This document shows, in pieces, positions 3,319 to 58,272 of a stretch of DNA of 58,272 nt; positions within the stretch are counted from its first letter, which is position 1; each line of letters starts with the position of its first letter. The notes below the pieces were generated by a model. The model was not told the origin of the DNA. It did no database searches and saw only the letters and a list, made by a program, of their open reading frames with translations. The position numbers and the translations under genes are program-made. The stretch covers positions 1-58,272 of IMG/VR virus record IMGVR_UViG_3300029448_000039; one strand, 5' to 3'. The stretch comes from a virus.

Positions 3319-3753
3319 ATGAATATATCTCAAAATGGAATAGATTTAATAAAAGAGTTTGAAGGCTGTCGATTAGAGCCTTATTTGTGTGCAGCTAATG
3401 TTTTAACAATAGGATATGGTCATACGAAAGATGTTGTAGAAAATATGAGTATAACTGAGGATACAGCAGAAAGTCTTTTAAAAGATGATTTAAGAGTGTT
3501 TGAGGATGATGTTACTAGGTTAGTTGAAGTACCATTATTACAAAATCAATTTGATGCCCTCGTTTCATGGACATTTAATTTAGGTGCTGGCAACCTAAAA
3601 ACGAGTACAATGTTAAAAGTATTAAATGCTGGCGAATATAAAAATGTTCCAGAGCAAATGAAACGATGGAATAAAGCGAGTGGAAAAGTATTAGAAGGAT
3701 TGACTCGTAGGAGAGAAGCTGAAGCTTTATTATTTGAGAAAGGAGAAGCCTAA
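3319..3753 (+). CDS. Endolysin, GH24 lysozyme (T4/P22-type)
   Basis: Peptidoglycan hydrolase cleaving the MurNAc-GlcNAc bond at lysis. The 144-residue length is usual for single-domain phage lysozymes. The catalytic pattern E-8-D/C-5-T is present as Glu15, Cys24 and Thr30 within the IGYGHT-containing N-terminal part; Cys in place of Asp occurs in part of this family. There is no signal peptide or signal-anchor, so export should need a holin; candidate holins follow directly. It starts one base after the preceding stop. Confidence 0.93.
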   Translation: MNISQNGIDLIKEFEGCRLEPYLCAANVLTIGYGHTKDVVENMSITEDTAESLLKDDLRVFEDDVTRLVEVPLLQNQFDALVSWTFNLGAGNLKTSTMLKVLNAGEYKNVPEQMKRWNKASGKVLEGLTRRREAEALLFEKGEA

Positions 3754-3754
3754 T

Positions 3755-3946
3755 ATGCAAAGGTCTACATTTAAAGAAGCATCCTTGATAAGAATAGAAG
3801 CACATGAAAAAGAATGCGCTATTCGATATGAATATATTGAAAGAAGATTAGAAGAAGGCGCACAAAGGTTTAAACGACTCGAAGCAATAATTTGGGGTGT
3901 ATATCCTTTTATTGTGGGTAGTATAATTTTGAGTAAATTTATATGA
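3755..3946 (+). CDS. Small coiled protein with C-terminal membrane segment (XhlA-like holin partner)
   Basis: A 63-residue protein: a charged amphipathic N-terminal helix rich in Arg/Glu, then one membrane segment of about 20 residues at the C terminus. This layout resembles XhlA-type or accessory holin proteins. I chose the ATG at 3755 because an AGGAG lies about 10 bases upstream; an ATG at 3734 would sit inside the endolysin end. It contains a GTTTAAAC site. The stop overlaps the next start (ATGA). The lysis role is inferred from position. Confidence 0.6.
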   Translation: MQRSTFKEASLIRIEAHEKECAIRYEYIERRLEEGAQRFKRLEAIIWGVYPFIVGSIILSKFI

Positions 3947-4260
3947 GCCAAGAAAATATAAAAAAGAAAATAGAATTAGAAGTAGAAGTTGGTACTACAC
4001 ATGTTGAAAGAGGCATTAACCCATATCAAAAATGGATTCATTTAGCTAAAGCAGTAGATGCTTGGCGTATATTTCCTCGTATGTTTTTAAGTGTATATAT
4101 ATTTTTACTTTATTATTCAGTAATGTGGTTTATGGAATTACCAGAACCTAGTTTAGAACAATCTGGTTTAATTTCTATTATTGTTGGTGCAGGAGCAGCT
4201 TGGTTTGGTTTATACGCAGGTAGTTCTAGTTCTAGCAAGAACTTTAAAGGTGAAGAATGA
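3943..4260 (+). CDS. Holin-like membrane protein
   Basis: A 105-residue protein with a charged N terminus and two hydrophobic segments (about residues 48-66 and 75-95, the latter IIVGAGAAWFGLYAGS). The GAGAAWFGLY segment is common in small phage membrane proteins annotated as holins. It is the best holin candidate: directly after the endolysin, two membrane helices, short Ser-rich polar tail. Start and stop both overlap neighbours by 4 bases (ATGA), suggesting translational coupling. Confidence 0.65.
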   Translation: MSQENIKKKIELEVEVGTTHVERGINPYQKWIHLAKAVDAWRIFPRMFLSVYIFLLYYSVMWFMELPEPSLEQSGLISIIVGAGAAWFGLYAGSSSSSKNFKGEE

Positions 4261-4463
4261 AGAAAATATTTCTTACTGAATTTACAAGTGATGGAAAAAG
4301 TTATGCAGGGCCAACTATATTGGCTGACAATTTTGCTGATGCTGAAAAAGAAGCAAAAAATTATGATGTAACTGTTGTTGGTTGTTTGGAAACAATAGTT
4401 GTTCCAGATAAAGAAGTTACTTCTTTTTATGAAGATGAAGAATGGAACAGGGTTTTACATTAA
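4257..4463 (+). CDS. Hypothetical small acidic protein
   Basis: A soluble 68-residue protein, acidic, with the pattern of a small alpha/beta fold (KKIFLTEF, an Ala/Glu-rich helix, VTVVGCLETIVV). I do not recognise it. It is coupled to the preceding gene by an ATGA overlap and its 3' end overlaps the next start. The location in the lysis block is its only functional hint. Confidence 0.55.
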   Translation: MKKIFLTEFTSDGKSYAGPTILADNFADAEKEAKNYDVTVVGCLETIVVPDKEVTSFYEDEEWNRVLH

Positions 4464-4738
4464 TAGCTGAACTTGGTTTGCCTGTAGCAGGCGGTCTTGT
4501 TATGGCTTATTTTATATTTTTAATTATGAAACAATTAATGGATGGCTTAGTAAGCGAAATACAAACAGTACAAGCTATATCTAAAATGCTTATTACCAGA
4601 GCAGCAACAATGAATAATGACATGATACGCATTGATACAAGCGTTAGTAGTGCATTAGGTTTATCTCCTGATTTAGAAAGAATAGCTAGAAGTGAAAACT
4701 TTGTTGAAGATGGAAAGATAGATGCAAGACGAGATTAA
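4442..4738 (+). CDS. Small membrane protein with coiled tail
   Basis: A 98-residue protein with one hydrophobic segment at about residues 10-32 and a long polar helical tail. Its topology matches several small phage lysis-block proteins such as class III holins and YvlB-like proteins, but I cannot assign a family. The gene starts 22 bases before the end of its upstream neighbour and overlaps the next gene. Confidence 0.55.
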   Translation: MEQGFTLIAELGLPVAGGLVMAYFIFLIMKQLMDGLVSEIQTVQAISKMLITRAATMNNDMIRIDTSVSSALGLSPDLERIARSENFVEDGKIDARRD

Positions 4739-4904
4739 TTTACCTCCTATAGGCGATGCAGAAGCAGTTGTAGATGGTTTATTTGGTCTTATATACCTTT
4801 ACCCATCAGATTATTTAATTGTTTTTGGATCGTTAACTTTGTTTGCAGTTTATGGTTTATCAATTTATGCAGGAATAAAATATATACAAAAGAAGTTTAA
4901 GTAA
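4722..4904 (+). CDS. Tiny membrane protein
   Basis: A 60-residue protein with an acidic N terminus, one hydrophobic segment (about residues 32-53) and a basic C-terminal end, predicting a single-span protein. It overlaps the upstream gene by 17 bases and shares one base with the next start (TAATG). No family recognised. Confidence 0.5.
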   Translation: MQDEINLPPIGDAEAVVDGLFGLIYLYPSDYLIVFGSLTLFAVYGLSIYAGIKYIQKKFK

Positions 4905-5161
4905 TGGATATTGTAAAGTTAGTTTCAGATTTTGGCTTTCCAATAGTTATGGTTGCAGGATTAGGTTACTTTGTTTATTTTGTGTGGCAAACAATTACTA
5001 ATAAAATAGATCCTGCTGTTCAAGAGATGAAGGTAACTATTATTAGACTTACCGATCAATTACGATTGCTTGATCAAGATATGATAAGGTTACAGCAAAA
5101 GGTAAATACAGTATTAGAACTAAAAGAAGAAAATAAACTTAAAGATGAGAATGAAAAGTAA
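4904..5161 (+). CDS. Small membrane protein, BhlA/UviB-like
   Basis: An 85-residue protein with an N-terminal membrane helix (about residues 8-30) followed by a long charged coiled helix. This layout is that of BhlA/UviB-type proteins, a family named for bacteriocin release and often seen in phage lysis regions. The TAATG junction with the upstream gene implies coupling. It is the last of the small membrane proteins before the curli-type genes. Confidence 0.5.
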   Translation: MDIVKLVSDFGFPIVMVAGLGYFVYFVWQTITNKIDPAVQEMKVTIIRLTDQLRLLDQDMIRLQQKVNTVLELKEENKLKDENEK

Positions 5162-5624
5162 TTGGCATTGGTTTTTTGGCATATATGTTTATGTAGCTTT
5201 GTTTTTATTGCTTCTTAACGTATACAGTAATGCAGATGAACTACTATTTAAATTTAAAAGTCCTAGCTTTTCAGGTCTTAACACTTCTTCACATTACTTA
5301 ACAATTGATTCACAAGAAGCAAGCAGAAGGCAAGCATTAAAAGATGAAATACAAGCATATCAAGATGATTTAGAAAGAGATGCTAGTAATACTACACTTG
5401 CCAGATTTATCAGAAACTTAGAATCTCGCATATATGCACAGTTATCTAGACAAATGGTAGAGCAACTATTCGGAGAAACACCACAAACATCAGGTAAACT
5501 AGAGCTAGAGGGAAATACAATAGAATATAATGTAGAGGAAGATGAACTTATTACACTTACGATTACATCAGAAGATGGTAGCCAAACTACTATATCCGTT
5601 CCTATTGGTGATTTTACTTTCTAG
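5145..5624 (+). CDS. csgF: Curli assembly factor CsgF-like
   Basis: A 159-residue exported protein. After an N-terminal signal (hydrophobic to about residue 30) comes LLFKFKSPSFSG, the counterpart of the N-terminal CsgF segment that plugs into the CsgG pore. The C-terminal half has the family's helical region (LESRIYAQLSRQMVEQLF) followed by beta strands ending in TISVPIGDF. In bacteria CsgF couples curlin secretion to nucleation at the cell surface. It directly precedes a csgG-like gene, as partners would. No CsgE is present. Confidence 0.85.
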   Translation: MRMKSNWHWFFGIYVYVALFLLLLNVYSNADELLFKFKSPSFSGLNTSSHYLTIDSQEASRRQALKDEIQAYQDDLERDASNTTLARFIRNLESRIYAQLSRQMVEQLFGETPQTSGKLELEGNTIEYNVEEDELITLTITSEDGSQTTISVPIGDFTF

Positions 5625-6375
5625 TTGTGCATCTAAAAATATGCTCGAAGGTGGCGGTGTACCAAACATTGTTATCAAAAATACATCTATATTAGAGTTG
5701 CAATCTGAAGAATTAAAAAATATAAAACCTGTAAAGCAAAAGCCTGTAGTAGCTATTTATCCTAATAGTTTTGTTGATTACACAGGACAGAGGAAAAGTA
5801 ATGGTCAATTTGCTTTATTTAGCACAGCAATAACACAAGCTCCAGATGCCTTTTTAATTCGCGCATTAAAGCATAGTGGAAATGGTAAGTTTTGGACAGT
5901 TGTAGAGCGTGTAGGATTAGATTCTTTGACTAAAGAAAGGCAAATTATAAGGTCAACAAGAGATTCTTTTGAAGAAGATAGCACTGTAAAACCTTTGATA
6001 TTTGCTGGACTTTTGATGCAAGGAGGTGTATTGAGTTATGATACTAATATATTATCTGGCGGTGCAGGTGCTAGATATTTAGGTATCGGCAGTAGTACAC
6101 AGTACCGAGAAGATCTAATAACAGTTAGTTTAAGATTAGTTTCTGTATCTACTGGTGAAATACTAATAGAAACTTCTGCACAAAAGAGTCTTTTGAGTGT
6201 TGCTATATCACAAGATATTTTTAGATTTTTGGATGAAGGACAAAGATTGATAGAGGTAGAAAATGGTAAAGCTCAAAATGAATCAACAAGTCTAGTATTA
6301 CAATTAGCAATAGAAGAATGTGTATTAGATATTATAAAACAAGGTATACAAAAAGGATACTGGAAATATGAATAA
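5575..6375 (+). CDS. csgG: Curli secretion channel lipoprotein CsgG-like
   Basis: Outer-membrane lipoprotein that forms the nonameric curli export pore. From the ATG at 5575 the lipoprotein signal ends LLSSC with Cys18 as lipidation site; an ATG at 5542 would add 11 residues ahead of the signal. Conserved CsgG blocks are clear: the STAITQAPDAFLIRALK region, a pore-loop region, SGGAGARYLGIG with the following strand, and SVSTGEILIETSAQKS. Length matches E. coli CsgG. The gene overlaps csgF, and its end overlaps the curlin-like gene, so all three are probably made from one message. Confidence 0.92.
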   Translation: MVAKLLYPFLLVILLSSCASKNMLEGGGVPNIVIKNTSILELQSEELKNIKPVKQKPVVAIYPNSFVDYTGQRKSNGQFALFSTAITQAPDAFLIRALKHSGNGKFWTVVERVGLDSLTKERQIIRSTRDSFEEDSTVKPLIFAGLLMQGGVLSYDTNILSGGAGARYLGIGSSTQYREDLITVSLRLVSVSTGEILIETSAQKSLLSVAISQDIFRFLDEGQRLIEVENGKAQNESTSLVLQLAIEECVLDIIKQGIQKGYWKYE

Positions 6376-7102
6376 TAATTATAACAAAATGATTTATGGT
6401 ACTGTAATGCTTGCGTTTTTGTTTGCATATAGTTTGTCTTATTCTGATGATAATGAAATCTATGTAGATCAAGTAGGTGCAACAGCAAATATAGATTTAG
6501 AGCAGTTAGGTTCTGGAAACATTATAGGTGGTTTAAACAGTGCACATGGATCTATGAATCCATTTGATTTAGATGGTGCTACGATGACATTAGATGTCAA
6601 TCAAATTGGAAACAACAACAAAATGCTTGGTGACATTAATGCAGATACGTTTACTGGCATCTTTGACTTTGATGGTGATACTAACTCGTATACTATTCAA
6701 GTTGATCCCGGAAACGCTAATTCGGCAGACAACGCAAATGTAAATGTGAACGTGGATGGTAGTACAAATACCATGTCATTAGATTTGGCTACGAATGCTT
6801 TATCTAGTGGTGCAGATATAGACACTATAGTTCAAGGTTCAAGCAATACTGTTCATATTGATTTAGATGTAGATTCAGGTACAAATTATATTGATTTGGA
6901 CGGGGACAGTAACACTGTTGACTATAATGGAGATGGATATGCAGGTGTTTACTTTAAATTAGAACATGATGGATCAACAAGGAGTTTTGACATTGATCAA
7001 CAATCTACGCAAGACAATGATTGGCTGCGCGTACTTAGCAATGGTTCTGGTGGCAGCGTTTGCATTAATCAGTCGGACCAAGGTACTAGCACAAGTTGTT
7101 GA
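6368..7102 (+). CDS. Secreted curlin-repeat protein (CsgA/CsgB-like)
   Basis: A 244-residue protein with a signal peptide (hydrophobic to about residue 26) followed by Asn/Asp/Gly/Gln-rich repeats. Curlin-type Q-x-G-x-x-N units appear early (DQVGATAN, EQLGSGN, NQIGNNN) and then loosen into Asp/Asn-rich beta repeats. Such repeats form stacked beta-strand amyloid in CsgA/CsgB. Its place right after csgG makes it the likely cargo of the pore. Two Cys near the C terminus are unusual for a curlin. Fibre formation is inferred. Confidence 0.7.
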   Translation: MNNNYNKMIYGTVMLAFLFAYSLSYSDDNEIYVDQVGATANIDLEQLGSGNIIGGLNSAHGSMNPFDLDGATMTLDVNQIGNNNKMLGDINADTFTGIFDFDGDTNSYTIQVDPGNANSADNANVNVNVDGSTNTMSLDLATNALSSGADIDTIVQGSSNTVHIDLDVDSGTNYIDLDGDSNTVDYNGDGYAGVYFKLEHDGSTRSFDIDQQSTQDNDWLRVLSNGSGGSVCINQSDQGTSTSC

Positions 7103-8126
7103 TATAGGAAGCATTACAGAACTAAACGGAATTACTAGAGTTGTAAGAGATAAACCATACGAAAGTGCTATAGACTTTTCTTTGAACTCTATGGATCGCC
7201 TAGAAACTGCAAAAGGCAGAATGGGTGTTACATTTAGAGATGAAACTACAATACGACTTACAGAGCATTCTAATGTCATTATAGACGAGTTTGTTTTTGA
7301 TCCTAACCCTAGTAAGTCTAGTATGGCTTTAAACTTTGTAAAGGGCACCGGTAGGTTTATATCAAGCAAAAAGCCACGCATTCCTAAAGATAACATTACA
7401 ATTAGAACTCATTCTGCTGTAGTGGGCATAAGAGGCACAGACTTCACAATCACTGTAAAAGAAACAGGCGAGTCTTTAATAATTTTATTGCCTGACGAAA
7501 CAGGCGAAGCAAGTGGTGAAATTATAGTTTATACAGCTTTAGGTGAAGTAGTTCTTAACAAACCCTATGAGGCTACTACAGTATATAACTTAGAAAGTTC
7601 TCCAACTCCTTCGGTAATCTTAGATTTAACCTTAAATCAAATTGACAATATGCTTATAGTAAATCCTCCGCAAGAAAAAGAAACAGGAACCGATGAAGGA
7701 AATACATCTAGCTCTGCAAATATATTAGATACAGATTTTCTTGAGTTTGATGAACTAGAGCAAGATGCTTTAGATGCTGAATCGGAGCTTGAATATACTG
7801 AGCTTGACATTGATTATCTAGCAACTAATTTTTTAGAAGATTTACTTGATGTAATACAAGAAGTAGATGAATTAAGTAAAGCCTCTGGCTCTTTGGGTAA
7901 ACAAGGTGTAGAGGGAACAAGTATTGGTTACGATAGTAACACTCAGATATCTAGTTTTGTTAATGACTCTGAAGTTAAATTAATTAGACAAGTGCAAGAT
8001 AAGTTAGAGCTTAGAGTATCTAAAGATGCAAGCACAGCAATAAGAATTGATCAAGAAGGCAAAGTAAATCAGGTAAGAGTCAATGGAGGAACTGAGTCAT
8101 ATATCAATATTAAGCAAGGCACTTAA
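7017..8126 (+). CDS. Exported FecR-domain protein
   Basis: Starts with a signal sequence (MIGCAYLAMVLVAAFAL) if the ATG at 7017 is used; an upstream ATG at 6966 gives 17 more residues and a deeper overlap with the curlin-like gene. Neither start has a strong ribosome site. A FecR-type domain follows (about residues 35-180) with GVTFRDETTIRLTEHSNV and SAVVGIRGTDFTI strands. The C-terminal half is very acidic and then beta-rich. FecR domains are periplasmic or surface beta structures; the curli context suggests an envelope role for the phage. Confidence 0.7.
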   Translation: MIGCAYLAMVLVAAFALISRTKVLAQVVDIGSITELNGITRVVRDKPYESAIDFSLNSMDRLETAKGRMGVTFRDETTIRLTEHSNVIIDEFVFDPNPSKSSMALNFVKGTGRFISSKKPRIPKDNITIRTHSAVVGIRGTDFTITVKETGESLIILLPDETGEASGEIIVYTALGEVVLNKPYEATTVYNLESSPTPSVILDLTLNQIDNMLIVNPPQEKETGTDEGNTSSSANILDTDFLEFDELEQDALDAESELEYTELDIDYLATNFLEDLLDVIQEVDELSKASGSLGKQGVEGTSIGYDSNTQISSFVNDSEVKLIRQVQDKLELRVSKDASTAIRIDQEGKVNQVRVNGGTESYINIKQGT

Positions 8127-8162: not shown

Positions 8163-8387
8163 ATGAGAAACTATAGAAAAGAATACGATAATTATCAAAG
8201 TAGTTCTAAGCAAAAAAAAGATCGTGCAGGTCGGAATAAAGCTCGTAGAACTATGATAAAGGCAGGGAAGGTAAAGAAAGGTGATGGAAAAGACGTTCAT
8301 CACAAAGATCGCAATCCAAAAAACAACAACAAAAAAAATCTAAGAGTATTATCTAAATCTAAAAATAGGTCGTTTAAACGAAAATAG
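8163..8387 (+). CDS. Small basic HNH-like protein
   Basis: A 74-residue Lys/Arg-rich protein with the core DVHHKDRNPKNNNKKNLRVL, close to the DVDHxDGNPxNN-NLR pattern of small phage HNH proteins. The HH-N-N arrangement fits a beta-beta-alpha metal fold, but there are no Cys pairs. It could be a nicking nuclease or a structural DNA-binding protein. A GTTTAAAC site lies 18 bases upstream of the start and another spans the end of the coding region. Confidence 0.65.
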   Translation: MRNYRKEYDNYQSSSKQKKDRAGRNKARRTMIKAGKVKKGDGKDVHHKDRNPKNNNKKNLRVLSKSKNRSFKRK

Positions 8388-8395
8388 GTTATATA

Positions 8396-8575
8396 ATGGC
8401 TAAGAAAAAATCTACTGTAAACAAAGCAGGTAACTACACGAAACCGACAATGCGTAAACGTATCTTTAACAGGATAAAAGCAGGAACTAAAGGTGGAAAA
8501 GCAGGTCAATGGTCAGCAAGAAAAGCACAAATGTTGGCTAAAGCATATAAAAAAGCAGGAGGAGGCTACAAATAA
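8396..8575 (+). CDS. DUF5872-type small basic protein
   Basis: A 59-residue protein with sequence features NKAGNYTKPTMRKRIFNRIK, then GGKAGQWSARKAQMLA and a GGGY end. This is the DUF5872 pattern seen in marine phages and in some large viruses; its function is unknown. It is strongly basic, which suggests nucleic-acid contact. It is joined to the next gene by TAATG. Confidence 0.75.
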   Translation: MAKKKSTVNKAGNYTKPTMRKRIFNRIKAGTKGGKAGQWSARKAQMLAKAYKKAGGGYK

Positions 8576-8760
8576 TGGCTAAAGGTGTAAAACATTACAA
8601 AAAAGATGGAACTGAACATAAAGGTGGTATGCATAAAATGCCTAATGGTCAGCTTCATTCAAATAAATCTCATACTAAAACAAGTGTTAGACTTTTTCAT
8701 TTTGGAGAACTAAGTAAGAAAGCTAAGAAGAAGGCTATGACTCAAAGAAAGAAAGCATAA
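8575..8760 (+). CDS. Small basic protein
   Basis: A 61-residue, Lys/His-rich protein (KHYKKDGTEHKGGMHKMPNG at the N terminus, KKAKKKAM near the end). Similar short proteins accompany DUF5872 proteins in marine phages. Function unknown. It is coupled to both neighbours by one-base TAATG overlaps. Confidence 0.65.
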   Translation: MAKGVKHYKKDGTEHKGGMHKMPNGQLHSNKSHTKTSVRLFHFGELSKKAKKKAMTQRKKA

Positions 8761-9017
8761 TGGCACTCAAAAAGAGTCAAAAAAGCCTTAAAAAATGGAC
8801 AAAACAAAAATGGCGAACTCCAAGCGGAAAAAAATCATCTGAAACTGGAGAGGTTTATGCTCCTTCTGCAAAGATAAAAAAGCTTAAATCAACTCCTGCT
8901 GGCAGGAGAAAACTAGCACAAGCCAACAAAAAGAAGAGAGAGGCTACTAAAAAAGGCAAACAACACGCTAGACATGGCTTGCACAAGAAAAAAACCACTA
9001 GAAGGAAGAAGAGATAA
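8760..9017 (+). CDS. Lys-rich small protein (DUF5872 neighbour family)
   Basis: An 85-residue protein of extreme basic composition with MALKKSQKSLKKWTKQKW at the N terminus followed by SGKKSSETGE. This N-terminal block recurs in phage and large-virus DUF5872-associated proteins. The rest is a low-complexity Lys/Arg tail resembling a histone tail. DNA or RNA binding is inferred only from charge. Confidence 0.7.
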   Translation: MALKKSQKSLKKWTKQKWRTPSGKKSSETGEVYAPSAKIKKLKSTPAGRRKLAQANKKKREATKKGKQHARHGLHKKKTTRRKKR

Positions 9018-9328
9018 TGGCTAAAAAGAAAGATCCTAGACTCGCAAGAGCAGGTGTTTCAGGTTTTAACAAGCCTAAGCGTACTCCAAGTCATCCTAAA
9101 AAATCACACATTGTTGTAGCCAAAGAAGGCGATAAGGTAAAAACGATTCGCTTCGGACAACAAGGTGTTAAGACAAATCAAACAGCAGGGCAAAGAAAAG
9201 CGTTTAAATCTAGACACGCTAAAAACATAAAAAGAGGAAAAATGTCCGCAGCGTTTTGGGCGAATAAAGTAAAATGGAGTCCTAGTAAGACTAAATCTCC
9301 TTCAAAAAAATGGAAAAAAGGATCATGA
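9017..9328 (+). CDS. Conserved basic phage protein
   Basis: A 103-residue basic protein. The segment FNKPKRTPSHPKKSHIVVAK, the strand KVKTIRFGQQGV and SRHAKNIKRGKMSAAFWANK form a pattern I associate with a widespread phage family of unknown function. It closes the four-gene basic cassette. A GTTTAAAT near-match to the dispersed motif lies inside. Confidence 0.7.
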   Translation: MAKKKDPRLARAGVSGFNKPKRTPSHPKKSHIVVAKEGDKVKTIRFGQQGVKTNQTAGQRKAFKSRHAKNIKRGKMSAAFWANKVKWSPSKTKSPSKKWKKGS

Positions 9329-9364: not shown

Positions 9365-9817
9365 ATGTTTAAACAACCTATGTTTATTATTTGTGCTTCG
9401 CTGGCTGCCATGCTGCTAGCAACTTCAGGAGCGTTTAAACTTTATTACGATAAATCTGAAGCAGAAAAACAGAACTTAGTAACACAGTTACAACAATCAA
9501 TGAACAATCAATTGTTGTTGGAAAATTCAATAGAAGAGCAAAACAAAGAAATAGAAAAGCATTTATCTAGAGAAAAAGAATCGCAAGCACAGATAGCAGA
9601 TTTAACTGAGAAGAATAATCAAGCACAGGAACAAGTAAGTGATTTAAGGAGCAAGTTTGCTAAACATGATTTAAATATGCTCTCTATGGCTAAACCTGCT
9701 CTTATAGAAAGATTAATTAACAGAGGAACAGATAAAGTAGGCAAAGAGATAGAAGTGCTTACAAATCCAAATCAATTTAATGAAGAAATTATTTCTGACA
9801 CTAATAATACTGACTAG
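9365..9817 (+). CDS. Inner-membrane spanin (Rz-like)
   Basis: A 150-residue type II membrane protein: N-terminal membrane helix at about residues 6-24, then a long Gln/Glu/Lys coiled coil to about residue 100. This is the i-spanin layout. It overlaps the following small lipoprotein gene in another frame, the usual spanin gene arrangement. With its partner it would fuse inner and outer membranes at the last step of lysis. A GTTTAAAC site covers its second to fourth codons, and another lies 60 bases on. Confidence 0.8.
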   Translation: MFKQPMFIICASLAAMLLATSGAFKLYYDKSEAEKQNLVTQLQQSMNNQLLLENSIEEQNKEIEKHLSREKESQAQIADLTEKNNQAQEQVSDLRSKFAKHDLNMLSMAKPALIERLINRGTDKVGKEIEVLTNPNQFNEEIISDTNNTD

Positions 9818-10145
9818 CGGATGTTCTAGTTTAGGCTCTAGGTTTACACCTCCTGAGGTCAAGCCTGTTGAGGTTATAAGAGTAGAAAAGCCTGCACCCA
9901 TGTATCATCCCCCATTACCCAATAAAGTAATTTCTATGCCTGTAGAGTGGAAAGTTCTAACACCTGATACGATGGAAGAATACTTAGCAGATTTAAAAAA
10001 AGGTGAAGCACCATCTCAAGCATACTATGGTTTAACAAACAAAGGTTATGAAAATCTTTCTAATAACATTGCCGAAGTGAAGCGATACATCAGGCAAACA
10101 TTATCCATCATAGAATATTATCGTGAGCTAGACAAAGAGAATTAA
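9780..10145 (+). CDS. Outer-membrane spanin lipoprotein (Rz1-like)
   Basis: A 121-residue lipoprotein with signal MKKLFLTLIILTSGC, giving Cys15 as lipidation site. A Pro-rich stretch follows (about residues 20-50), typical of o-spanins, then a helical C-terminal half. It starts 38 bases inside the i-spanin gene. Together they complete the Gram-negative lysis set, so the host must have an outer membrane. Confidence 0.8.
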   Translation: MKKLFLTLIILTSGCSSLGSRFTPPEVKPVEVIRVEKPAPMYHPPLPNKVISMPVEWKVLTPDTMEEYLADLKKGEAPSQAYYGLTNKGYENLSNNIAEVKRYIRQTLSIIEYYRELDKEN

Positions 10146-55400: not shown

Positions 55401-58272
55401 TTACTTTAGATGGCAGAGAAAAAGATATAACAAGTCCAGCTTATCATGAAGCCACACATTATCTTTGGAACAATGGATTTTTTAATGAACAGCAAAGAAA
55501 AACTATACTAGATAATAGAGATTATTTAAGACAAATAGTTAAAAACAACATTATTACTAATGAAACACAATATAATTCTATCTTTTCTCCTTTAGACGAA
55601 GCAGGTGAAATGGATGAACTATTAGCTTATACATCAGGTTATTACAATGCTTCTATGGATCTTAACAATACACCTCCTACATTCTTAACTGATGAAGTAA
55701 ATGGAATATTAAATAACTTATATGAGATGTTTAAACAGTTAGCCAGATATGTAAGTGGCAATAACACACTGTTTACACCTACTGAACAACAAGCTATTAC
55801 TCAGATACTAGATGATGTTCGTTCAGGAGCTATTGGTAGACAAGACATGTTTTTTAACACTGATGGTACTGATCCAGTTGCCAGAAGGGCTGCTATTATT
55901 ACAGGGTATCCTGATGGGCGAATGCCAAGTTCTTTTCAATTACAAGCACCATTAAAAGACTATATAAAACAAACTCAATTAAAACAAAAAAAGAAAGGCT
56001 CTGAATGGTTATTTAGGAATGATAAAGGTCAAATTGATGGTGTTTTAAAGAAAGCTAAATTTAAAACAAAGTTTAGAACCAGTGCAATAACTGATACTGA
56101 GTTAAAGAATGTAGGTTTATATCAAGAATTAACAAATAATCCTGACAAAATATATAGCGGTCAAGAGTTACTCAATATAATTCAACGTAATGAGAATATG
56201 TTAGTTATTACGAGTTTTGGAGAAAATACTAACGAAGCTAGTTATGGTGTAATTAGTCAAAAAAGAGATGAGTTGAGACAAAGAAAAAGAACTTTATTTG
56301 ACACAATGATTCAAAGAAATCCAGTAGACATATTATGGAGTCTTAGTGAAGCAAATAAACAACAATATTTTGCACAAGATTCAGGTTTGATAACTAATTT
56401 TTTAAGTAAGTATGTAGATAGTGAAGGTAATTTAAAACTAGGTCGAAAAGTAGAAGGTTATAATCAGGAAGAAGTATCTAGGGAGATATTAGATCTTACT
56501 ACAAAGCTTACAGATACACCTGTAGATTCATTAGTTGATATTTATTTAAATGCTAATCCAAATATTAATAAAGCAATTTCTGATTTTCCAAGTTTTAGAT
56601 TAAATTACAAGCAATATATGAGTGAATTGGGAGATACTCCAGAAGCACTATTTAGAAATAGACAAAAAAACACTAGGATTATGGCAATAAAATTATTGCA
56701 CAATCCAGAGGGAATAAACCCAATGATGAATACAGGAATTTCTCTTGCACAAATTAAAGAAAGTGTTGATAAAGTTAGAACAGATGCTATTACTACAGCA
56801 AATACATTAGTAAAAGAATATGGATACACAGATGAATTTTTAACATCATTTGTTGATTTAATAGAAAACTTATCTACACAAAAAAGACTTGAGCTTGAAC
56901 ATAAAAGAAATACAGGTGGATATAACACTGAATCTAGTGTTGAAGATTCTAATAATTTACAAAGAAGATTAGGTAGTCAGTCTCAAGAATTTCAAAATTG
57001 GACATTTCCTTCAACAAGAGGGCAAGATGTCAACAACTATGGGTTATATGTTTTTAGTATGCCTAATTTAAATTTAGAAGATTTAGAAATTGTTAGACAA
57101 GAAATAGATCCAGATCTAGAAGTACAACCAAGTTTAAATAAATTTGGTAAAGGAAAAAATATAATTAGTTTTCCTGCTTATATAAAAACAAAAAGAGATA
57201 CAGGTTTTGGCACAGAAATTTTAGAAGTTTTTCAAAATGATAGATTAAGTAGTATAAATCATTTTAATAATATAGCTAATCCATTTGCTCATTTTAGATC
57301 TACTGACTTTATTACAGTTGATGGTGAAAAAGTTTTAGTAGTAGAAGAAATACAAGCTGATTACTTAAACTACTTAGAAGATGCTTTAAATATATATATA
57401 ACTTATCAGATGAGAGAAAAGACTAATGTTAATTATCTTAGTTTTTTAAAAGATATGAGAACTTTAGTGCCAAATAATCTTCTTGATAGATATGATGCTT
57501 ATGTTGAATTAGAAAGAACTTTAGAAGAAAGAACACTACAGACTTTACAAAAAATTCCTAGTATAGGAATATTAGATGAAGAGGCTGCATTAAGACTTGA
57601 TAATTTAGCTTCAGAAAGAAAAGAATTTTCTAGATTATTAGCTAGACAAGATATTAGGTCTCCTGAACAAACTCAATACAAAGAAATGATTGAAATAAAT
57701 CAACTACCTGATATTCCTTACAAAACACAAAACGAAATGATTGAATTTGTAAGTAATTTTGCAATACAAAAAGCCGCATCAGAAGCATACGATGGTATTG
57801 CTATAGTTAATAGTGAGTTACAAAACGAAAGATATAGACATAATTTTAAAAATTCTATTAGCAGTATCGAAGCTGAATTTATTGAATTACGCTCAGAACA
57901 GTCAGGTTTAGTCGAAGAATTTGTTATTTTTAGATATGGAATACCACAATCTGAATTTGCTTTATCAATGGGTACAGAACAACTTAGTTTAGATCAATCA
58001 GAACAATATATGATGCCTTTAAGTCAAGTTGGATTAGATAAAGATGAATTTTTATCTGCTAATGATGTAATGGAATTTGAAGAAAGAGGTGTTGTTTATA
58101 ATGGAAAAACAACTTTTCAAAAATTTATTGGACAAGATATATCAGATTTTTTAGAAGAAATATCATCGCAAGAAAATGGAGTAGTGACAATAGAAAATTT
58201 ACCTGAGGTTTTGAGAGAAGAATTTGATGGTAATTATACTGGTATAGATTTAGAAGGTAGAGTAGATATTCC
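52499..58272 (+). CDS. Giant polyvalent protein, N-terminal part (continues at base 3)
   Basis: Open from the ATG at 52499 to the window end (1,924 codons here). Residues about 110-380 are Gly/Ala-rich helical with membrane-active character (AGGVGAGTSDQMMKAY). A zincin motif HEATH lies at 983-987 within YHEATHYLW. A conserved polyvalent-protein segment with NPFAHFRSTDFIT and VEEIQADYLN lies at about 1590-1625, and AASEAYDGIAIVN follows near 1765. Joined through the end repeat, the protein would have about 2,900 residues. Packaging and injection are inferred from family and position. Confidence 0.85.
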   Translation, partial: MATSEEELRKALLARRFSKETKSSGRVNPFIQTLESAKFGIKPPEPVLQEPVEPQPREDISGFSLNELIERRAKRNPNYIDALDNEYIGQDVVIEEEKTPDSDNPFVTAIRGISRGGAQTALTAGQGILALADAVTDAVGFEELIDSEDGEMIRLLNEAREYVGYEEGAGGKLAEAIGSMLIFAVPGMAQAGFSARAATAAMKGQQGLQIAQQANRYAKGMQALKFTTAGGVGAGTSDQMMKAYKEAGGEYTTGQKNLALAMGVGIGFTELLPIEMILKGLPRALDRNVKNSIVKRIANAVADGGMEGVQEVGASLAQEYSAQMIYNPDQEIGESMLSDFGYGGGAGAIFSLFLRGKGRKIGRTQADQQALADDYEQTQPSPAFTDKELPVDKKIAIYDTNGKEIEGKVISVNPDDNTSTIEIEDGDIKRKINVPLRAEINNEGYSLFSDEELFNPKNSLDIADKDGNVINYPVGNPEKTTNEILEKEETRLSKLAAQVKISEQDVFKLKVIRTELARREALTSDTLIDPEQIDVEKSQQDSLEEEAQTGSSKFIRDVDDLTRRTTQEAEAEAEARARQEGIDVETDQFVPVPNKFSNTTFDLPDPDSSIAYNLGRRGKDPSEESIERTAIDLDLSVNELRTLSKSYASDVQAEIKKQKKGAPRYTATSFKQYAEQNKPYDIRDKQIARQRKELKIANPRFRQLINQVTDLTGVNVEDLNSLQRAELVDLMSKEKQAQDAIKNQEQVKLETSLNDDGNLEIKVKSRADTKKAEPLETIVIESSEDGINRLLEMGQKYNLSENDTDNVLQSATALDQNIKASQLTNDYFRALDLATKNKTVTVKGLQKKLYGTDIDNLEDFRKTQEILLAMQEQGYVSEPTANKPTSKRQVLQKFTAIDTAGEILVQDVDQEGNRILDITQEQEEVANKVKNIIEGVAPGSQLKLAHVIRDRVTGNKLLGAQFKNIIAVTLDGREKDITSPAYHEATHYLWNNGFFNEQQRKTILDNRDYLRQIVKNNIITNETQYNSIFSPLDEAGEMDELLAYTSGYYNASMDLNNTPPTFLTDEVNGILNNLYEMFKQLARYVSGNNTLFTPTEQQAITQILDDVRSGAIGRQDMFFNTDGTDPVARRAAIITGYPDGRMPSSFQLQAPLKDYIKQTQLKQKKKGSEWLFRNDKGQIDGVLKKAKFKTKFRTSAITDTELKNVGLYQELTNNPDKIYSGQELLNIIQRNENMLVITSFGENTNEASYGVISQKRDELRQRKRTLFDTMIQRNPVDILWSLSEANKQQYFAQDSGLITNFLSKYVDSEGNLKLGRKVEGYNQEEVSREILDLTTKLTDTPVDSLVDIYLNANPNINKAISDFPSFRLNYKQYMSELGDTPEALFRNRQKNTRIMAIKLLHNPEGINPMMNTGISLAQIKESVDKVRTDAITTANTLVKEYGYTDEFLTSFVDLIENLSTQKRLELEHKRNTGGYNTESSVEDSNNLQRRLGSQSQEFQNWTFPSTRGQDVNNYGLYVFSMPNLNLEDLEIVRQEIDPDLEVQPSLNKFGKGKNIISFPAYIKTKRDTGFGTEILEVFQNDRLSSINHFNNIANPFAHFRSTDFITVDGEKVLVVEEIQADYLNYLEDALNIYITYQMREKTNVNYLSFLKDMRTLVPNNLLDRYDAYVELERTLEERTLQTLQKIPSIGILDEEAALRLDNLASERKEFSRLLARQDIRSPEQTQYKEMIEINQLPDIPYKTQNEMIEFVSNFAIQKAASEAYDGIAIVNSELQNERYRHNFKNSISSIEAEFIELRSEQSGLVEEFVIFRYGIPQSEFALSMGTEQLSLDQSEQYMMPLSQVGLDKDEFLSANDVMEFEERGVVYNGKTTFQKFIGQDISDFLEEISSQENGVVTIENLPEVLREEFDGNYTGIDLEGRVDI
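57885..58272. repeat. Right copy of imperfect terminal direct repeat
   Basis: Partner of bases 1-385. After the 68-base identical block, about fifteen codons differ, and by my reading all but one change the amino acid (for example D to S, Q to E, D to N, F to M). The copy is one codon longer. Confidence 0.9.

Follow-up and report, generated by a model that had tools for sequence, protein, structure and literature searches.

Introduction

Curli-type secretion genes have already been described in phages. The sections of PMC9599517 (2022) that treat the module place HK-csgF-csgG-csgA/B-FecR in pelagimyophages as well as in pelagipodophages of the HTVC023P type; FecR is often followed there by a second curlin and an adenylate cyclase. 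Phage curli secretion is common across the ocean, with reports from all 65 GOV2.0 stations. The operons of HTVC008M and Melnitz (PMC7029224, PMC9004378) have the order csgF-csgG-curlin-FecR as well, include a cyclase and a second curlin besides, and adjoin ssb and replication genes, away from the lysis genes. Two further systems serve for comparison: the csgBAC-csgDEFG curli genes of E. coli, which provide a CsgG pore, a CsgF with a pore-binding N-terminal peptide, and a secreted curlin cargo; and FecR, the regulator of ferric citrate uptake, whose PF04773 domain recurs in the phage FecR protein.

Here we describe a curli module in IMG/VR record IMGVR_UViG_3300029448_000039, analysed at its full length of 58,272 bases (the window, to which all coordinates refer). 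The curli export unit is real, conserved, and already described in its phage group, as the relevant sections of PMC9599517 attest—the linked cargo and FecR protein are no new addition, being present there both in this group and in pelagimyophages. What this genome adds is a four-gene minimal version, in a sequence that is probably complete; a position in the lysis region that is specific to the lineage; and reasons for questioning the HK and FecR-regulator labels in the literature. The four-gene core can thus stand without the cyclase and second curlin, and a testable revision can be offered of what the FecR and 'HK' genes are annotated to do.

Genome form and phage group

The record carries a near-identical direct terminal repeat of ~385 bp (positions 1-385 and 57885-58272; 363 identities, 22 mismatches, and 3 gap positions), and joining its ends yields a single 2,900-codon open frame with no stop, the giant virion gene. 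Given the repeat and the frame closed across the join, the genome is probably complete and circularly permuted, at about 57.9 kb; the IMG/VR class of the record is linear. In its portal protein, the phage shares about 40% identity with Pelagibacter phage HTVC023P, phage 023Pt_psg01, and HTVC027P, which suggests a relative of the HTVC023P-type pelagipodophages; a podophage genome of about 58-60 kb is also common to both. SAR11 is the putative host, judged solely by these relatives.

Organization of the module

Four consecutive genes, overlapping head to tail, occupy positions 5145-8126 on the plus strand: csgF (5145-5624; PF10614, E=3.7e-18), csgG (5575-6375 from the likely lipoprotein start, the ORF opening at 5542; PF03783, E=7.8e-44), a csgA-like gene for a secreted curlin cargo (6368-7102), and a gene for an exported FecR-domain protein (7017-8126 from the likely signal-peptide start, the ORF opening at 6966; PF04773, E=2.2e-11). 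The initial annotation had read this overlapping series from the letters; the genes stand at the positions it gave, and the Pfam matches to csgF, csgG, and FecR bear it out. The overlaps measure about 50-83 nt for csgF/csgG, 8 nt for csgG/csgA, and about 86 nt for csgA/fecR (counted from the likely fecR start); the FecR signal peptide is encoded within the 3' end of csgA (7017-7102), in a different frame. Upstream on the same strand lie the genes for two paralogous small membrane proteins (4442-4738, 98 aa, phrog_18771 with E=4e-23; 4904-5161, 85 aa, phrog_18771 with E=6e-26), the first a module component called 'histidine kinase' in the sections of PMC9599517 cited above. The order small-membrane gene(s)-csgF-csgG-csgA-FecR, like the gene content, is that of the HTVC023P-type module, in which a second curlin and an adenylate cyclase are frequent, not universal; this genome is without both.

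The module shares its strand with the structural genes, in the order giant virion gene, endolysin, module, Rz/Rz1 spanins. The upstream boundary of the lysis region is a phage lysozyme (3319-3753, plus strand; PF00959 Phage_lysozyme, E=2.5e-50; PHROG 7 endolysin, 4.8e-63), and downstream, on the plus strand, lie an Rz-like i-spanin (9365-9817; phrog_739, E=2e-8) and an Rz1-like lipoprotein o-spanin (9780-10145; phrog_812, E=4e-14). Endolysin and spanins therefore flank the module as first annotated, but the holin in that description has no strong match: apart from one weak holin hit (E=0.008), the small membrane proteins encoded at 3734-5161 find only PHROGs without an assigned function. Linkage to endolysin and spanins goes unmentioned for the HTVC023P-type module in the sections of PMC9599517 used here. 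Judged by its position, the module is likely expressed late; a promoter scan gave fewer sites than in shuffles and was set aside. Directly 3' of the curli set, at 8163-9328, are five small lysine-rich genes (one HNH-like and four for basic proteins, 59-103 aa), homologues of which flank csg in five other loci too.

Predicted pore proteins

CsgG carries the SGGAGARYLGIG block and, if translation starts at 5575, a lipobox (LLSSC) whose cysteine is invariant. Its profile matches PDB CsgG 3x2r with E=5e-61, and together with PF03783 and the lipobox cysteine this points to an outer-membrane lipoprotein pore; identity to CsgG of HTVC008M and Melnitz is 40-45%. CsgF, the predicted surface-exposed pore partner and chaperone, matches PF10614 and has an N-terminal FKFKSPSFSG that aligns with FQFRNPNFGG of the solved E. 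coli CsgF (E 0.012 for that short stretch); the peptide residues F37, P40, F42, and G44 are invariant in 19 phage sequences. From CsgG-CsgF structures, we take the N-terminal segment of solved CsgF to be the part that enters the CsgG barrel. It was argued in PMC9004378 that the phage versions of CsgG and CsgF may have ceased to associate in a complex; the retained pore-binding peptide argues against that suggestion.

Several components of the E. coli system have no counterpart here. The CsgE gate, CsgC, and CsgD were not recognised between 3319 and 10145 by ORF, Pfam, or PHROG comparison, and they are missing from the modules in the sections of PMC9599517 as well; no csgB was identified in the phage module either. 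In their stead, the phage module has the FecR-domain protein and the small membrane proteins, and the repeats of its cargo are strongly diverged.

Curlin-like cargo

The cargo's own sequence falls below Pfam detection for curlin and has no significant Pfam match; Curlin_rpt (PF07012) is matched by 12 of its 17 aligned relatives, at best with 8.6e-6. Modelled with AF2 from 15 relatives, the protein is all-beta beyond its signal helix, with a mean pLDDT of 71 and a pTM of 0.67. In BFVD, a library of viral structures, the model's best matches are three phage proteins named 'Curlin associated' (TM by query 0.63-0.69, prob 1.00), and no significant match was found among solved PDB structures. The stacked beta repeats foreseen by the initial annotation are consistent with this model, which places the predicted cargo in the phage curlin fold family. 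The protein is aspartate-rich, with few canonical Q-x-G-x-x-N repeats, and its C-terminal cysteine pair (C232, C244) is invariant in the podophage group—presumably a departure from E. coli CsgA. A cysteine pair near the C-terminus also occurs in the second curlin of myophages and in one bacterial curlin.

FecR-domain protein

In 17 members of the FecR-protein family, Pfam gives PF04773 and no other significant domain; DUF4880, the FecI-interacting region, was not detected by Pfam in these members, nor was a FecI noticed among the genes of the module. With a signal-peptide-like helix at its N-terminus, the protein does not show the architecture of a FecR anti-sigma regulator, in which a cytoplasmic DUF4880 region and a TM precede a periplasmic FecR domain. 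Unlike the regulator of ferric citrate uptake, the phage protein appears to combine an N-terminal signal peptide, no DUF4880, and a curlin-like C-terminal tail; it is nearer to surface proteins with an N-terminal FecR domain, and its best NCBIfam matches, weak and below cut-off, are the surface proteins Lsa33 and LipL45. The AF2 model is poor (pLDDT 52) and unfit for structure search.

The tail deserves separate attention. All 21 homologues close with a pair of strand-Q motifs (phi-x-phi-x-Q) spaced by 21-22 residues, and the final Gln lies two or three residues before the end of the protein; this spacing equals one curlin repeat, and curlin C-termini end similarly. The pattern has a shuffled-sequence probability of about 6.5e-4, the 21 homologues being related rather than independent events. 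A curlin-repeat HMM did not score the tail above shuffled controls and was dropped as proof of homology, and profile-profile comparison of the tail with the curlin repeat gave 13% probability (P=0.002); we therefore describe the tail as a conserved feature resembling a curlin repeat, for which homology to curlin is suggested rather than proven. A role of the FecR protein as anchor or nucleator is plausible, if statistically unproven. The broader proposal, that a FecR-domain nucleator or anchor with a C-terminal curlin-like repeat replaces CsgB, and perhaps CsgE too, in phage curli modules, is one we put forward tentatively and with more doubt than confidence—if true, the published reading of HK and FecR as an iron-responsive regulatory circuit would be wrong.

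Small membrane proteins

Each of the two small membrane proteins of the module (85-98 aa) has one hydrophobic segment. A kinase domain (HisKA/HATPase) gave no Pfam match in 18 members of the family and no NCBIfam match in the two proteins of this genome; on this evidence, the genes published as 'histidine kinase' encode small membrane proteins with a single predicted helix and no kinase domain. A homologue lies directly upstream of csgF in 54 of 54 loci with enough upstream sequence. Among deposited phages, matches are restricted to the csg-bearing HTVC008M and Melnitz, whose homologous proteins also lie upstream of csgF, and these small membrane proteins therefore accompany the module and do not count among general lysis genes.

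Conservation and genomic setting

The survey set comprised 80 viral contigs fetched with CsgG. The order csgF-csgG-csgA-fecR, whose conservation the initial annotation had made a check on its reading, is kept in all 57 complete modules (this genome's included) on these related viral contigs. Pairwise dN/dS is 0.09-0.17 for csgF, 0.13-0.21 for csgG, 0.07-0.13 for csgA, and, where computable, about 0.07 for fecR: all four genes are under purifying selection, which holds the cargo as tightly as the pore. Chance ORFs are excluded by the constant order and by these values of about 0.07-0.21. The fecR frame overlaps csgA in 65 of 65 podophage-type loci with all four genes; HTVC008M and Melnitz do not have this long overlap, the former showing a 2-nt gap and the latter a 23-nt overlap.

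The setting of the module is more variable. Of 51 loci with enough flanking sequence, 32 have a lysozyme gene no more than 4 kb away, and the lysis-region site is thus common in this podophage group, lineage-specific, and not intrinsic to the module. The HTVC008M and Melnitz modules have ssb and replication genes as neighbours, so position by itself is no ground for assigning the module a role in lysis, and the lysis-region site is better read as a trait of this lineage. A cyclase gene is near 47 of the 80 loci; tblastn found no cyclase in this genome, nor in the flanking sequence fetched for its closest relatives (L001-L019). In ten relatives the cyclase gene stands 3' of the curli set on the opposite strand and is therefore not always co-transcribed with it. 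A second curlin is clearly seen in myophage-type loci, and tblastn of this genome matched only csgA itself.

Proposed function and alternatives

As a whole, the locus is probably best explained as a minimal phage-encoded curli (type VIII) secretion unit. The working export unit with linked cargo that was originally proposed gains from the kept gene order, the dN/dS of the cargo, its predicted phage-curlin fold, and the kept CsgF peptide. Starting from the genes, their order and conservation, and the selection and fold family of the cargo, we infer a pore, export, and polymerization as follows. CsgG would form an outer-membrane lipoprotein pore in which CsgF would be seated through its conserved N-terminal peptide; the signal peptide would take the curlin-like protein across the inner membrane, after which it would exit via the pore and polymerize as a beta-repeat subunit on the infected cell. 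The exported FecR protein would play a structural part, probably as an anchor or nucleator that pairs with the fibre through its strand-Q tail, instead of regulating a sigma factor in response to iron; the two small membrane proteins may act as accessories of the module in the inner membrane. With the module on the same strand after the giant virion gene and endolysin, and flanked by spanins, the unit is most likely expressed late, and it would coat cell and debris shortly before lysis—a coat that may serve aggregation, blocking of other phages, or something else. Counting against this reading are the missing CsgE and CsgC, the cargo's lack of its own Pfam curlin match and of a PDB match, a FecR tail that does not outscore shuffled controls, the poor FecR model, and the report that infected OM43 cells did not clump (PMC9004378).

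The missing CsgE gate would also suit an uptake pore. In that proposal, found in PMC7029224 and in the sections of PMC9599517 cited above, the CsgG channel admits larger nutrients or cofactors to the periplasm during infection while FecR senses iron or a siderophore; however, uptake needs no secreted curlin, yet one is present and under purifying selection, the FecR protein has PF04773 as its sole significant Pfam domain, a DUF4880 for contact with FecI being absent from the Pfam matches, FecI itself was not noticed among the module's genes, and the position in this genome is late, so that we consider uptake very unlikely. The same conserved cargo tells against a pore that only aids lysis. A CsgG/CsgF pore opening at the end of infection could help endolysin and spanins to depolarize or permeabilize the envelope, with cargo and FecR gating or plugging it, as put forward for Melnitz in PMC9004378; the site between endolysin and spanins and the 32 of 51 loci near a lysozyme gene agree with this. 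A pore-only role leaves the strong conservation of a curlin-type cargo unexplained, though, and a complete Rz/Rz1 pair is already in the genome, while the HTVC008M and Melnitz modules do not adjoin lysis genes at all; we regard a lysis aid as unlikely.

The cargo could also be exported by the pore without forming fibres, as a soluble or virion-decorating beta-solenoid. Its scarce canonical repeats, richness in aspartate, and invariant terminal cysteine pair would suit such a protein, but its relatives match Curlin_rpt and its modelled fold matches phage curlins, which makes this reading improbable beside that of a curli secretion unit.

Occurrence in bacterial assemblies

A bacterial origin of the module was considered and set aside: a CsgG scan of genome contigs gave four matches, and the two examined (L085, L087) are contigs of phage-like character that had been assigned to MAGs. 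These curli-bearing contigs sit in Maricaulis and Rhodobacteraceae MAGs, and two others, in Flavobacteriaceae and Pelagibacter MAGs (L086, L088), look similar on partial inspection; such contigs could mislead surveys of bacterial curli. Among 190 alphaproteobacterial genomes sampled, three further genomes had CsgF above cut-off. No FecR gene was recognised beside csg in the alphaproteobacterial operons L102 and L103, and the ORF calls of L101 are unreliable. Across 289 alphaproteobacterial genomes, the phage FecR profile was matched at full length, among the matches listed, only on phage-like contigs of one MAG; the remaining matches listed cover the FecR domain only, and in alphaproteobacteria this domain is often part of long open frames, from many hundreds of residues up to several thousand. 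One CsgG relative (38.5% identity) is on a 1,499-bp unverified low-coverage 'Salmonella phage' contig (OR851715.1), which is likely carried-over bacterial DNA.
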